Of a stretch of DNA of 59,161 nucleotides, positions 4,017 to 8,722 are shown piece by piece. Source of the stretch: Bacteriovoracaceae bacterium (lineage in GTDB: Bacteria; Bdellovibrionota; Bacteriovoracia; Bacteriovoracales; Bacteriovoracaceae); contig JAIEMA010000041.1 in the NCBI GenBank assembly GCA_019752535.1, positions 1 to 59,161 of the forward strand. Direction: 5' to 3'. Positions within the stretch are counted from its first letter, which is position 1; each line of letters begins with the position of its first letter. The notes below the pieces were generated by a model, which saw only the letters and a list, made by a program, of their open reading frames with translations, had not been told where the DNA came from and did not search any database. The translations under genes and the position numbers were made by a program.

Positions 4017-4844
4017 CTAGCGACCTCTTCCACCACCGATACGACCTGCACCGTTTTGTGCAGCAACTTCATCAATCGTACGGTTTAAGTCCATAATCGA
4101 GCGGCGCGCTTCTTCAATCATTCCACGGTCAAGCATACGCTCGGCTTTCTTAAGGCCTCTCTGGATGTCACTAAACTGCATTGAATCCATCGTGATTTGA
4201 GTCGGCATTGGAGGATATGGATTGTATTGGATCCCTGCATTTAACAAACACTGGTTAGCTGAACTTGTGTTTCCAGAATTCGCCAAGTCATAACAGATGC
4301 TCTCGGTTCCATTCATAAAATCTTTGTTCGCAATAATCGCCACACAAGCAGCTCCATTCGTTGCATTCCAGCTAGCTACGCGTTCACACACGCGAGCTGC
4401 ACTTGGAACAATATAAGCATCACGAGCATTCTTTAAGGCTTCAACCGCCGCAGACGTGTTTCCAGAGTTTGCAAGATTGTAAGCCACGTTTAATGCTGAT
4501 TCATCAAATGAAGCATCAAGAGCATTGGCGACACATGCGATAGCATTCGTCGCATTCCATGAAGCCACGCGAGTACAAACGCGTGTGGTGTTGGCATCCA
4601 TGCGGCGATTCGCTCCAGTCTGCATAACTGAGAGAGAAGCGGATGTATTACCGGTGTTCGCTAAACCATAGGCGACATCAATAACGGCCTGATCAAAGCG
4701 TGAGCGAGAAATCACTTGAGCACAGCTTGCACCATTGGTTGAATTCCATGCGCTAATACGACGGCAAACATCAACTGGGCCATTGGCTTGGGCCATTGCA
4801 GCTGAAGAAGCGATAAGGGTTAAAGACAAGAGAAGGCGTTTCAT
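4017..4844 (-). CDS. Exported protein with three exact-period 63-residue Cys/Trp-Asn repeats
   Basis: Signal peptide of about 18 residues ending AMA. Three repeats follow, each beginning Cys-x-Arg-[Ile/Val], then W-N-[Ser/Ala]-T-N and a second Cys 14 residues after the first. The paired cysteines are C27/C41, C90/C104 and C153/C167, a spacing of exactly 63, which suggests one disulfide or metal site per repeat. Each repeat also holds an LAN[S/T]GNTS segment about 35 residues in. Residues 222-262 are probably helical and charged, and the tail is Gly/Arg-rich (GRIGGGRGR). Location is periplasmic or extracellular. I do not recognise the family. It stands alone, with its own terminator and divergent from the ribosomal operon. 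Confidence 0.8.
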   Translation of the reverse strand: MKRLLLSLTLIASSAAMAQANGPVDVCRRISAWNSTNGASCAQVISRSRFDQAVIDVAYGLANTGNTSASLSVMQTGANRRMDANTTRVCTRVASWNATNAIACVANALDASFDESALNVAYNLANSGNTSAAVEALKNARDAYIVPSAARVCERVASWNATNGAACVAIIANKDFMNGTESICYDLANSGNTSSANQCLLNAGIQYNPYPPMPTQITMDSMQFSDIQRGLKKAERMLDRGMIEEARRSIMDLNRTIDEVAAQNGAGRIGGGRGR

Positions 4845-4897
4845 AGGGGGCTCCTAGCTAAGATTAAAAAAGTTGATGCAATATATCATTTCTTCTA

Positions 4898-4918
4898 ACT
4901 CATTAAAATATAATGAGT
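4898..4918 (+). promoter_or_regulatory. Promoter -10 inside a perfect dyad before the S6-S18 operon
   Basis: TATAAT at 4909-4914 is a perfect -10 box. It sits in a perfect 8-bp inverted repeat, ACTCATTA (4898-4905) and TAATGAGT (4911-4918), with a 5-bp centre. No strong -35 is seen. A protein bound on the dyad would cover the -10. Confidence 0.5.
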
Positions 4919-4958
4919 AAATCTTATCCGTCGCGCAAACCTTCGAAAACATGGACTT

Positions 4959-5056
4959 CTATAGGGAGCGATGCTAGATTTCGTGCACATTTATTCGGTT
5001 TTCCACTCGCTCATAGCAATTAAGACTATGGGCATAATTATATCCCAGGAGGAACC
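4959..5056 (+). promoter_or_regulatory. Structured leader of the S6-S18 operon, candidate autoregulatory RNA
   Basis: CTAT (4959-4962) and GAGCGA (4966-4971) can pair with TCGCTC (5007-5012) and ATAG (5013-5016), leaving AGG bulged. GCTCATAG (5009-5016) can instead pair with CTATGGGC (5026-5033), 7 of 8 positions, so the two helices exclude each other. GGTTTT (4997-5002) can pair with GGAACC (5051-5056) next to the AGGAGG ribosome site (5047-5052). S6:S18 complexes are known to bind a leader motif in their own mRNA in many bacteria; whether this is a variant of that motif is inference. Confidence 0.45.
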
Positions 5057-5692
5057 ATGATCTACGAAACGGCGATCGTCGTGAAGCCCGATGCTACGGA
5101 AGAAGCTGTTGCTTCGGCCAAAAACATCATCACAGAAACAGTAAAAGAGTTCGGAGGAGAAATCCTTGTGAGCGACGCATGGGGTGTGAAGACATTCGCA
5201 CAAGCCTTTGAGTCAGGTCTCAGAAAAGGTAATTTCTTTTACTTCATGTATCAGTCTAAAGGGACTGCCAACATGGAACTTGAGCGTAAGCTTCGTATCA
5301 ACGAAGGTGTTGTTCGCTCAATCATCGTAAAACTTGGTGATGATTCTCAAAAAGATGAAATCGTTAAGAATTACAAAAACCCTAACCACACTCAATCTGC
5401 TGCAGCTTCTGCAAACATTGAAGAAGGTGACGAAGGCGGAGACGAGGGCGGCGGTGATAAAGAGAAGCGCATGTATTCAAAGCGCAAGTCTTGTTACTTC
5501 TCTGCAATGAAAACTTCTCCAGACTGGAAAGACCCTAAGTCATACGGTTGGTTAGTGAATGAGTTTGGAAAAATTTCTCCAGCTCGTATCACTGGATTAA
5601 CTCCTAAGTTCCAACGCAAAGCTTGCGATGCTATTAAGCGCGGCCGTGCAATGGGTCTTATCAGTTATACTTCTGGCGATATCGCTAGATAA
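5057..5692 (+). CDS. rpsF/rpsR: Fused 30S ribosomal proteins S6 and S18 in one polypeptide
   Basis: Residues 1 to about 100 are S6 (bS6): MIYETAIVVKPD start, WGVKTFAQAF, GNFFYFMY. Residues 101-138 are a low-complexity linker ending in an acidic Gly-rich stretch (EEGDEGGDEGGGDK). Residues 139-211 are S18 (bS18): KRKSCYFSA, GKISPARITGLTPKFQRKAC, AIKRGRAMGLISYT. The frame is unbroken. S6 and S18 normally come from separate genes and bind each other before entering the 30S platform, so a fusion is structurally plausible. AGGAGG at 5047-5052 serves the start. Met139 (5471) could restart S18 alone, but only weak GA-rich sequence precedes it. Neighbours YybS, L9 and DnaB keep the classic operon order; no ssb gene lies between. 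Confidence 0.95.
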   Translation: MIYETAIVVKPDATEEAVASAKNIITETVKEFGGEILVSDAWGVKTFAQAFESGLRKGNFFYFMYQSKGTANMELERKLRINEGVVRSIIVKLGDDSQKDEIVKNYKNPNHTQSAAASANIEEGDEGGDEGGGDKEKRMYSKRKSCYFSAMKTSPDWKDPKSYGWLVNEFGKISPARITGLTPKFQRKACDAIKRGRAMGLISYTSGDIAR

Positions 5693-5703
5693 TCTGAGGA
5701 ACA

Positions 5704-6672
5704 ATGACCACAGAAATCCTTCAACAACCTAAACTCGGAATCTCACGCTGGCTTCTTCTAGGAGCCTCTAGTGTCGTCCTATGTTTAAGTTATTTGATGG
5801 CCATCTTTACTCCATTCCCATTGGCGATTGCCACTGTGTTGTATGGACGTATGCGTGGCTATTCATTAATGTTGGCGGGACTTCTGCTTTGTGTCGCTCT
5901 TGGAGCTTCTGGAGTTCTAGATTACACTCTTGCTTCATCTTATTTTCTTTTGTCATTTTTCGCTGTTGTTATTTCTGAAACGATGTTGCGTTCATGGAAA
6001 CCAGTAAGGTCTCTCGTCGCAACTGGAATTGTCTTTTTAGTTTTATTTGCTGGTGGTCTCACTAGTTATGTAAAAGCTGAGAAGAAAACAATTATGGAAA
6101 TTGCGACAATTGAAGTTTCAAAAGTGATTACGAAGCTTGAAGAAGCAAAAAAAGCAGGAACATTTCAACAAGATCTCTCTGATCTTGGACTTGCAAGACC
6201 TGCTGGGGAAATTGCTCAAGAAATCTTGAGAACAATTCCAGGCTATCTTGTGATGGGCGTGTTTTTTATCTTATGGGTGAATACCTATTTAGTTTTAAAA
6301 GGACGTCGCCTTCTTCAGCCTGCCGTTACGCATGAGTTTGATGAAAATCATTTGCTCTCATTTAAAGTTCCATTCGCTGGAGCATATGTGGTGGCAATTT
6401 CTCTTGCTATGGCCGTTTGGGGAAATCAGCTCATCCCAGTATGGGGTGAGGTCATTGGAATGCTTTTATTGCAAACAATTGGTGTCTTTTATTTCTTCCA
6501 AGGTTTTGGAGTTACTCTTAACTTCCTCAACCATTTTCAAATATTAGGATTTCTCCGCACGATCTTCGTGATGGGTGTAGTCTTTTTTATTCCGTGGATG
6601 GTGGCGGTGTTGGGAATTTTCGACACTTGGTTTGATTTTAATAACAAATTTAAAAAGAAAGTTTCAAATTAA
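5704..6672 (+). CDS. YybS-like DUF2232 multi-pass membrane protein
   Basis: 322 residues with about seven to eight hydrophobic segments; a short charged stretch near residues 120-160 (KKTIMEIATIEVSKVITKLE) lies between two halves. The LPXXGVFYFFQGFGVTLNFL-like part near residue 255 and the position between S18 and L9 match the YybS/DUF2232 proteins found in this operon in Firmicutes and deltaproteobacteria. Function unknown; suggested only as an inner-membrane protein. It starts 11 bp after the fusion gene, with a GAGGA site at 5696-5700, and ends 9 bp before rplI. Confidence 0.7.
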   Translation: MTTEILQQPKLGISRWLLLGASSVVLCLSYLMAIFTPFPLAIATVLYGRMRGYSLMLAGLLLCVALGASGVLDYTLASSYFLLSFFAVVISETMLRSWKPVRSLVATGIVFLVLFAGGLTSYVKAEKKTIMEIATIEVSKVITKLEEAKKAGTFQQDLSDLGLARPAGEIAQEILRTIPGYLVMGVFFILWVNTYLVLKGRRLLQPAVTHEFDENHLLSFKVPFAGAYVVAISLAMAVWGNQLIPVWGEVIGMLLLQTIGVFYFFQGFGVTLNFLNHFQILGFLRTIFVMGVVFFIPWMVAVLGIFDTWFDFNNKFKKKVSN

Positions 6673-6681
6673 GGAGCTGTT

Positions 6682-7266
6682 ATGAAGGTTATCCTTCTCG
6701 AAAAAGTAAAAAATGTCGGCAATATCGGCCAAATCGTAAGCGTAGCTGAAGGCTTCGCACGTAACTTCCTTCTTCCACGTAAGTTCGCTTTAGTGGCTGA
6801 TGAGAAAAACTCTAACGTTCTTAAAGATCGCCAAAAAGCGCTTTCTAAGAAAATCGAAGCTGAGCAAGCTGGAGCAAAAGAAATCAAGAAGAAGCTTGAT
6901 GGCACAACTATTGAGATGATCAAGAAAGTCGGTCAGAACGGAAAACTTTTCGGATCTGTGACTACTCTTGATATCAGCAAAGAGCTTGAGTCAAAAGGCA
7001 TTCACGTTGAGCGCCGTTTGATCAACATCGAAGGTGCAGTAAAAAGCATGGGAACTTACGATTGTAAGGCCCGCCTTTTTGGTAACGATGTCGTTGCTAA
7101 CTTTAAACTTAAGATCATGATCGATCCTGTTCAGGCCGAAGAGTTAAAGAAAGCTGCTGCTGAAGCTGCTAAGCGCAACGCTGATAAGAAAGCGGCTAAG
7201 ATCGCTGCTGAAGCTGCTGCTAAAGCTGCTGAAGAAGCTGCTCTTGCTGCTAACAACGAAGAATAA
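6682..7266 (+). CDS. rplI: 50S ribosomal protein L9 with extended Ala/Lys tail
   Basis: Binds 23S rRNA and spans the L1 stalk side of the ribosome. The first 150 residues are typical: MKVILLEKVKNVGNIGQIVS, GFARNFLLPRKFA, the long central helix, then NGKLFGSVTTLDI. Normal length is near 150; here about 44 more residues of Ala, Lys and Glu (KKAAAEAAKRNADKKAAK and on) form a probable extra helix. AAGGAG lies before the ATG. An efficient terminator follows 27 bp downstream. Confidence 0.95.
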   Translation: MKVILLEKVKNVGNIGQIVSVAEGFARNFLLPRKFALVADEKNSNVLKDRQKALSKKIEAEQAGAKEIKKKLDGTTIEMIKKVGQNGKLFGSVTTLDISKELESKGIHVERRLINIEGAVKSMGTYDCKARLFGNDVVANFKLKIMIDPVQAEELKKAAAEAAKRNADKKAAKIAAEAAAKAAEEAALAANNEE

Positions 7267-7375: not shown

Positions 7376-8722
7376 ATGTCTAACGATAAAATCACCCAAG
7401 AACTTCCTCACGATTACACTGCTGAAAAAGCTGTGCTCGGCTCTCTTTTGATTGATAACAGATCTTTTGATGAGATCAGTGATCTTTCACTAAAAGCCGA
7501 TGATTTCTACCATCCACAATATGGAATGATTTTCGAAGCGATTCGTGATTTGCATGTTGGCACTCAGCCTTTTGATCTAGTGACAGTAAGCTCAAAGCTT
7601 AATGACATGGGCAAACTTGAGCGAGTGGGCGGACAGAGTGCGCTGGTTGCTCTTGCTGAAGATGTGCCTTCAGCTGCGAACATTGGAGCTTATGCTAAAT
7701 CAGTAAAACAGAAAGCTGTCTTAAGAGAAGTGGTGAGAGCGGCTTCGCGAGTGGTCCAAGCGGGAACAAATTTTACTGGGGATGTGGATGATTTCTTAGG
7801 TGAGGTGGAATCTAGTTTCTTTAAACTCACGAATCAGGCCAAGAAAAATTCCATGCGCTCTCTTAAAGAGTCTTTGCATGAGAGTTTAAAAGATCTTGAG
7901 CGCTCTAATCGCGCCAAGGGTGAAATAACTGGAATGCCGACTGGCTTTCCTTCAATTGATAGAAAACTTTTAGGTCTTCAGCCCGGTCAACTTATCGTTA
8001 TTGCCGCCCGACCTGGTGTGGGTAAAACATCTCTTGTGCTTAATTGGGCGGTCAATGGCTGCAAGCAATCAGGTCTTCCTGTCGCGATCTATTCGATGGA
8101 GATGTTAACCAACGAATTAGGTTTGAGAATTTTATCCAGTGAAGCCAATATCGATTCAAGAAAAATTCGCACAAAAGATTTTGGCCCCCATGACATGAAG
8201 AACATGTTCTCGGCCGTGCAACAACTCTCTCGATTACCCATCGTCATCAATGATTCAGGTGCTACCACACTGATTGATATTCGCTCTCAGTGTCGCCGTC
8301 TTAAGGCCGAACAAGGTCTTGGCATGATCATCATCGATTACCTTCAACTTATGCAGCCCCATATCCGTAAGCCTTCTCGTGAACAAGAAATTTCGGAAAT
8401 CTCAAGGGGACTTAAAGAGCTCGCTAAAGAATTGGGCTGTCCCATTATTGCGCTCTCTCAGCTCAATCGTTCTTCAGAATCAAGAACGGATAAACGACCT
8501 CAGCTTTCAGACCTTCGCGAATCAGGAGCCATTGAGCAGGATGCCGATATTGTGTGTTTGATTCATCGTCCAGATATGGGTGATCCTAATTCATCGAAGA
8601 AAGGAATTGCGACCGTGATCGTCGCCAAAAACCGTGCTGGTGAACCTGGAGATGTGGATCTGGCATGGATTGCATCGCAAACTAAATTCGCTGAGCTCGA
8701 TTTTCAGCGTCCAGAGGCTTAA
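7376..8722 (+). CDS. dnaB: Replicative DNA helicase DnaB
   Basis: Hexameric 5'-3' helicase at the replication fork. 448 residues, usual length. N-terminal DnaG-interacting domain begins PHDYTAEKAVLGSLLID. The RecA-like motor starts near residue 180: Walker A ARPGVGKTS (about 211-219), Walker B MIIIDYLQLM, and the SDLRESGAIEQDAD motif near residue 380, ending with VAKNRAGEPG. No intein. pabB follows 2 bp after the stop. Confidence 0.97.
   Translation: MSNDKITQELPHDYTAEKAVLGSLLIDNRSFDEISDLSLKADDFYHPQYGMIFEAIRDLHVGTQPFDLVTVSSKLNDMGKLERVGGQSALVALAEDVPSAANIGAYAKSVKQKAVLREVVRAASRVVQAGTNFTGDVDDFLGEVESSFFKLTNQAKKNSMRSLKESLHESLKDLERSNRAKGEITGMPTGFPSIDRKLLGLQPGQLIVIAARPGVGKTSLVLNWAVNGCKQSGLPVAIYSMEMLTNELGLRILSSEANIDSRKIRTKDFGPHDMKNMFSAVQQLSRLPIVINDSGATTLIDIRSQCRRLKAEQGLGMIIIDYLQLMQPHIRKPSREQEISEISRGLKELAKELGCPIIALSQLNRSSESRTDKRPQLSDLRESGAIEQDADIVCLIHRPDMGDPNSSKKGIATVIVAKNRAGEPGDVDLAWIASQTKFAELDFQRPEA

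Follow-up and report, generated by a model that had tools for sequence, protein, structure and literature searches.

The leader RNA in front of rpsF is reportedly an S6:S18-responsive element, as described by Matelska 2013 and Fu 2014. In E. coli, repression of translation by S6:S18 through the rpsF leader was demonstrated in vivo (PMC4647458; Babina 2015), and this repression needs S6 and S18 together, neither protein being sufficient alone (PMC4647458). The two proteins pair with each other before they join the rRNA-S15 complex, and S18 K60 and R63, two basic residues in contact with C719/C720 of 16S rRNA, are required for binding of both rRNA and leader (PMC4647458). PMC2837039, citing Bubunenko, describes S6 as dispensable in E. 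coli. More generally, gene fusions tend to copy the first step of assembly (PMC4009401).

Here we describe a locus in which bS6 and bS18 are encoded as one protein. The window analyzed comprises 59,161 nucleotides of a contig from a member of the Bacteriovoracaceae. The S6:S18 heterodimer and its leader are known, and what is new is the permanent fusion of the two proteins and its spread through a whole bacterial class. No published report of an S6-S18 fusion was found in the open-licence literature searched. It is unusual for two ribosomal proteins, whose genes rank with the best conserved single genes, to stay fused across an entire class. In eukaryotic ubiquitin-ribosomal protein fusions, a ribosomal protein is likewise made within a fusion and is freed from ubiquitin by processing; the present fusion, by contrast, joins two ribosomal proteins, and a processing signal was not seen in it. 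We conclude that the S6:S18 heterodimer, elsewhere a building block of the 30S subunit and a feedback repressor, has probably become one chain.

The fused gene and its product

A frame of 211 open codons (positions 5057-5692, forward strand), whose ATG start is preceded by AGGAGG, encodes a protein of 211 amino acids with a calculated mass of 23.4 kDa. The preliminary description of this DNA had placed a full S6 and a full S18 in this one frame, and this was borne out by Pfam and NCBIfam. Ribosomal_S6 (PF01250) matches residues 3-92 with 66.5 bits (cut-off 27), Ribosomal_S18 (PF01084) matches residues 153-202 with 51.3 bits (cut-off 21), and the equivalogs TIGR00166 and TIGR00165 were both matched above their cut-offs. 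The bS6 part (residues 1-111, 5057-5389) continues beyond the Pfam match into a C-terminal tail, IVKNYKNPNH, that is common to the free S6 of split relatives. It is followed by an acidic, glycine-rich linker (residues 112-138, 5390-5470), which differs in length among relatives and contains a 12-bp repeat at 5429-5451, and by the bS18 part (residues 139-211, 5471-5689), whose first residue M139 is an in-frame AUG. In a sequence search the S18 part matched solved S18 chains with an E value of 3.6e-17. The calculated isoelectric points are 5.9 for the S6 part, 4.1 for residues 112-134 and 10.2 for the S18 part.

In the whole source genome (3.49 Mb, 97.5% complete) a single S6 match and a single S18 match were obtained, both in frame 5057-5692, and no second copy of either was found. 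The fused gene is single-copy, and the earlier observation that a separate rpsR is missing holds genome-wide. Replacement of rpsF plus rpsR by a covalent S6-S18 pair is thus supported for the source genome. The absence of ssb, which had also been pointed out, does not set the locus apart, since other Bdellovibrionota lack ssb between rpsF and rpsR as well; in the genome G027, for example, rpsF is directly followed by rpsR. Downstream, the fused gene is adjoined by a gene for a DUF2232 membrane protein (5704-6672), followed by rplI (bL9; 6682-7266) and the replicative helicase gene dnaB (7376-8722), all on the forward strand. One RimK-family ligase above the cut-off is encoded in the source genome.

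For structure prediction by AlphaFold, 63 fused sequences were used as input. The S6 domain was predicted with confidence (pLDDT about 90) and the S18 domain fairly, residues 112-138 appeared disordered (pLDDT below 50), and the pTM was 0.74, a value that hints at a docking of the two domains in the model. In a structure comparison the S6 part matched bS6 chains with Z scores of 13-16, S6 chains filling the match list. K194 and R197, which by eye correspond to E. coli S18 K60 and R63, are invariant in all 63 fused sequences. At the published S6-S18 contact, S6 Tyr48 is replaced by Gln and S18 Tyr23 by Trp in 63 of 63. The same Gln and Trp are found in split relatives within Bacteriovoracia; in the outgroups checked, S18 has Tyr, and so does S6 except for a Thr in G029. 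The fused protein thus resembles the bS6:bS18 heterodimer of E. coli, Bacillus and Thermus in its two domains, its RNA-binding residues and its place beside rplI, and differs from it in being one chain and in these two contact residues.

Distribution and origin in Bacteriovoracia

Bacteriovoracia (the Bacteriovorax group) are mostly predatory bacteria. The source genome sits in this class, its named relatives being Bacteriovorax, Halobacteriovorax and Bacteriovoracaceae. When 129 Bacteriovoracia genomes were screened with a profile built from 21 fused proteins, 119 gave a match; all ten genomes without a match are less than 90% complete. A full-length, stop-free fusion is present in 110 of the 119. 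In two more (G011, G133) the fusion is interrupted by contig ends with the junction still covered, and in G050 the contig stops within the linker. Five of the 119 (G005, G022, G086, G087 and G091) encode S6 and S18 separately, both genes having a start and a stop of their own. When only genomes with at least 90% completeness and at most 5% contamination are counted, a match is present in 73 of 73, including the split genomes G022, G087 and G091 as well as the TAA-bearing G097. The fusion is thus conserved throughout the class and occurs in dozens of other genera, including genomes assembled into a single contig (G129) or two contigs (G006, rated 100% complete). For annotation this means that S6 or S18, if counted separately, will look absent from fused genomes.

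In G097, a member of the fused clade, one in-frame TAA interrupts the linker (locus L136, reverse strand, about 701-703), and no AUG, GUG or UUG follows shortly after it from which S18 could be restarted. This TAA may reflect an error in the consensus; otherwise it would be a recent break accompanied by readthrough or an unusual start.

The search for fusions covered the Bdellovibrionota. In those members of the phylum outside the class that were examined in detail the genes are separate, and in some, e.g. G027 and G036, they are directly adjacent. A first hint had pointed to G027 and G036 as fusion carriers; both were rejected, as a stop lies between the genes in each. A phylum-wide S18 search gave, among the matches listed, no open frame longer than 155 amino acids outside the class. 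In the complete Bdellovibrio-type genome G029, rpsF and rpsR lie about 740 kb apart (loci L219 and L220) and the rpsF leader is kept. Three further Bdellovibrio-type genomes rated 95-99% complete (G164, G190 and G187, the last being one contig and 99% complete) yielded no convincing S18 match, even when the threshold was relaxed; in these, S18 may have diverged strongly or disappeared.

In an RpoB tree the split Bacteriovoracia genomes lie at the base of the class. A tree constrained to unite the fused genomes in one clade has a higher likelihood than that of a free quick search (p-AU 0.61), and the data thus fit a single origin of the fusion without proving it. The split genome G091 is informative with respect to the order of events. 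Its free S6 carries the tail LVKNYRSPF, ending KEGLVKNYRSPF..., and its free S18 starts with a hydrophilic N-terminal extension ending DFDKDKRMVMKRRSCWF; the two resemble the halves IVKNYKNP... and ...DKEKRMYSKRKSCYF of the fused linker. Given this resemblance, the simplest history would be that S18 first gained an N-terminal extension and that the intergenic stop was lost afterwards. The stop separating the neighbouring genes rpsF and rpsR would have been lost in an ancestor common to most Bacteriovoracia, creating one frame, and the linker would consist of the former S6 tail and the extension that S18 already had.

The linker and the fate of the fused chain

The linker is 15-31 residues long among relatives, with the frame open throughout. 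It is poorly conserved, and the conserved stretch 134-145 corresponds to the usual basic N-terminus of S18. The fusion might be a precursor from which a protease cutting in the linker releases ordinary S6 and S18, so that only their equal synthesis would be fixed. Such a cut would suit a linker that is predicted to be disordered, that varies in length and sequence as a cleavable spacer could, and that adjoins a Lys/Arg-rich stretch; moreover, eukaryotic ubiquitin-ribosomal protein fusions start as precursors (PMC10296562). However, no cleavage motif turned out to be conserved in the linkers of the fused sequences, and the ribosome needs no cut if S6 and S18 remain bound to each other. We regard processing of this kind, which the preliminary description had raised too, as rather unlikely.

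A free S18 could also be produced, in addition to the fused chain, by internal initiation at AUG 139 or at another start codon in the linker. In the window, AUG139 is preceded by GGUGAU with a calculated anti-SD duplex of -6.0 kcal/mol, and most of the window's subclade retains this AUG. Across the fused genes, however, codon 139 is AUG in only 36 of 77; in the other 41 it encodes K, R, L, Q, N, I, A, T or G, and about 20 fused genes lack AUG, GUG and UUG throughout the linker. Furthermore, the mean duplex energy is -2.4 kcal/mol at AUG139, weaker than at other in-frame AUGs (-3.1 kcal/mol) and far from that of rpsF starts (-10.0 kcal/mol). With start codons so often missing and ribosome-binding sites so weak, internal initiation does not provide a class-wide route to free S18. 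The preliminary description had named it as a possible objection to a fused ribosomal protein; we now judge it very unlikely, although a little internal initiation may occur in the window itself.

Finally, a stop codon lost through sequencing or assembly error could be suspected, as the window is a contig from a draft genome of 76 contigs, but the junction recurs with differing linker lengths in at least 110 independently assembled genomes, near-complete ones included, so that this objection, likewise anticipated earlier, fails upon comparison with related genomes, more than 100 of which share the fusion, and its probability is negligible.

Taken together, we consider it probable that the ribosomes of Bacteriovoracia contain a single uncleaved bS6-bS18 protein, acting as a covalent intermediate of 30S assembly and as a one-protein feedback repressor. 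The chain would fold as an intramolecular S6:S18 pair and join the 30S platform as one unit. By this route, the pairing that elsewhere precedes binding of S6 and S18 to rRNA would become permanent. The locus thereby offers natural tests of whether a gene fusion mimics the first step of ribosome assembly, of how S6, dispensable in E. coli, behaves when locked to S18, and of feedback by the S6:S18 dimer when it is carried out by a single chain.

A leader RNA in front of the fused gene

Directly upstream of the fused gene lies an rpsF-type leader RNA (5006-5057, forward strand). It is the sole match in the window of a covariance model (R1) and scores 54.3 bits, the window sequence itself being among the sequences of the model. 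The leader begins with the 5' strand of a putative helix H1 (CUC, 5006-5008), followed by hairpin H2 (GCUCAUAG...CUAUGGGC, 5009-5033), an A/U spacer, a conserved CC and the AGGAGG ribosome-binding site, which would pair with the H1 strand. The same order is conserved upstream of the fused genes, namely CUC, a variable hairpin GCUC...GGGC, an A/U-rich spacer, CC and AGGAGG.

H2 is supported by covariation. In a core alignment of 36 sequences, 66 cells were changed on both sides of the helix as compared to 22.8 +/- 4.3 after shuffling, and the covariation score was 0.427, whereas sliding the partner strand gave no more than 0.149. The CUC:GAG pairs of H1 are present in 36 of 36 sequences. As H1 comprises only 3 bp and is nearly invariant, with one pair varying on one side only, covariation is silent on this helix. 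Of the CC preceding the 3' strand of H1, the second C is invariant and the first is conserved to at least 90% (alignment A4). RNAalifold found no structure in an earlier leader alignment that included long flanks, as the loops and spacers differ in length; the core-only alignment succeeded.

R1 also matched 16 of 16 further fused loci (L203-L218), some of them from genomes that also supplied model sequences, as well as the split G091. Weak matches were obtained directly before rpsF in the unfused outgroups G027 (E 0.014) and G029 (E 0.035). The E. coli rpsF leader was not matched by R1, and a search of Rfam over 4800-5800 with E values up to 10 returned chance hits only. By eye, the E. coli leader (L147) consists of UCCUU, GCCUCC...GGAGGC, UGAAUAAU, CC, GU and AAGGAG. 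It shares with the element described here an H1 strand directly followed by an H2 that starts with G, an A/U-rich spacer, the CC, a ribosome-binding site placed in the putative H1 and the same gene downstream. In contrast, H1 of the fused class consists only of CUC:GAG instead of UCCUU:AAGGA as in E. coli and similarly in several outgroups, and the element of the fused class lacks an Rfam match.

By analogy with E. coli, the fused gene is likely preceded by a switch of the S6:S18-sensing type, its effector now being one chain. Chains in excess over rRNA would bind the retained leader and turn off their own translation. As the chain itself would bind the leader, the repressor would no longer depend on two proteins having to meet. 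The earlier suggestion that feedback control may be altered is backed by the conserved rpsF-type leader, and an effect on control itself would follow from the analogy with E. coli.

Among the genomes with separate rpsF and rpsR, G022 (L145), G086 (L141) and G087 (L140) have lost the rpsF-type leader, which is kept in their fused relatives and in more distant outgroups. Thus, the leader is not indispensable in the class. On the other side of the leader, a divergent gene (4017-4844, reverse strand) encodes 275 amino acids with a signal-like start and without a Pfam match; its product contains three internal repeats around 'VC.R.ASWN.TN...C' and 'LANTGNTS'.
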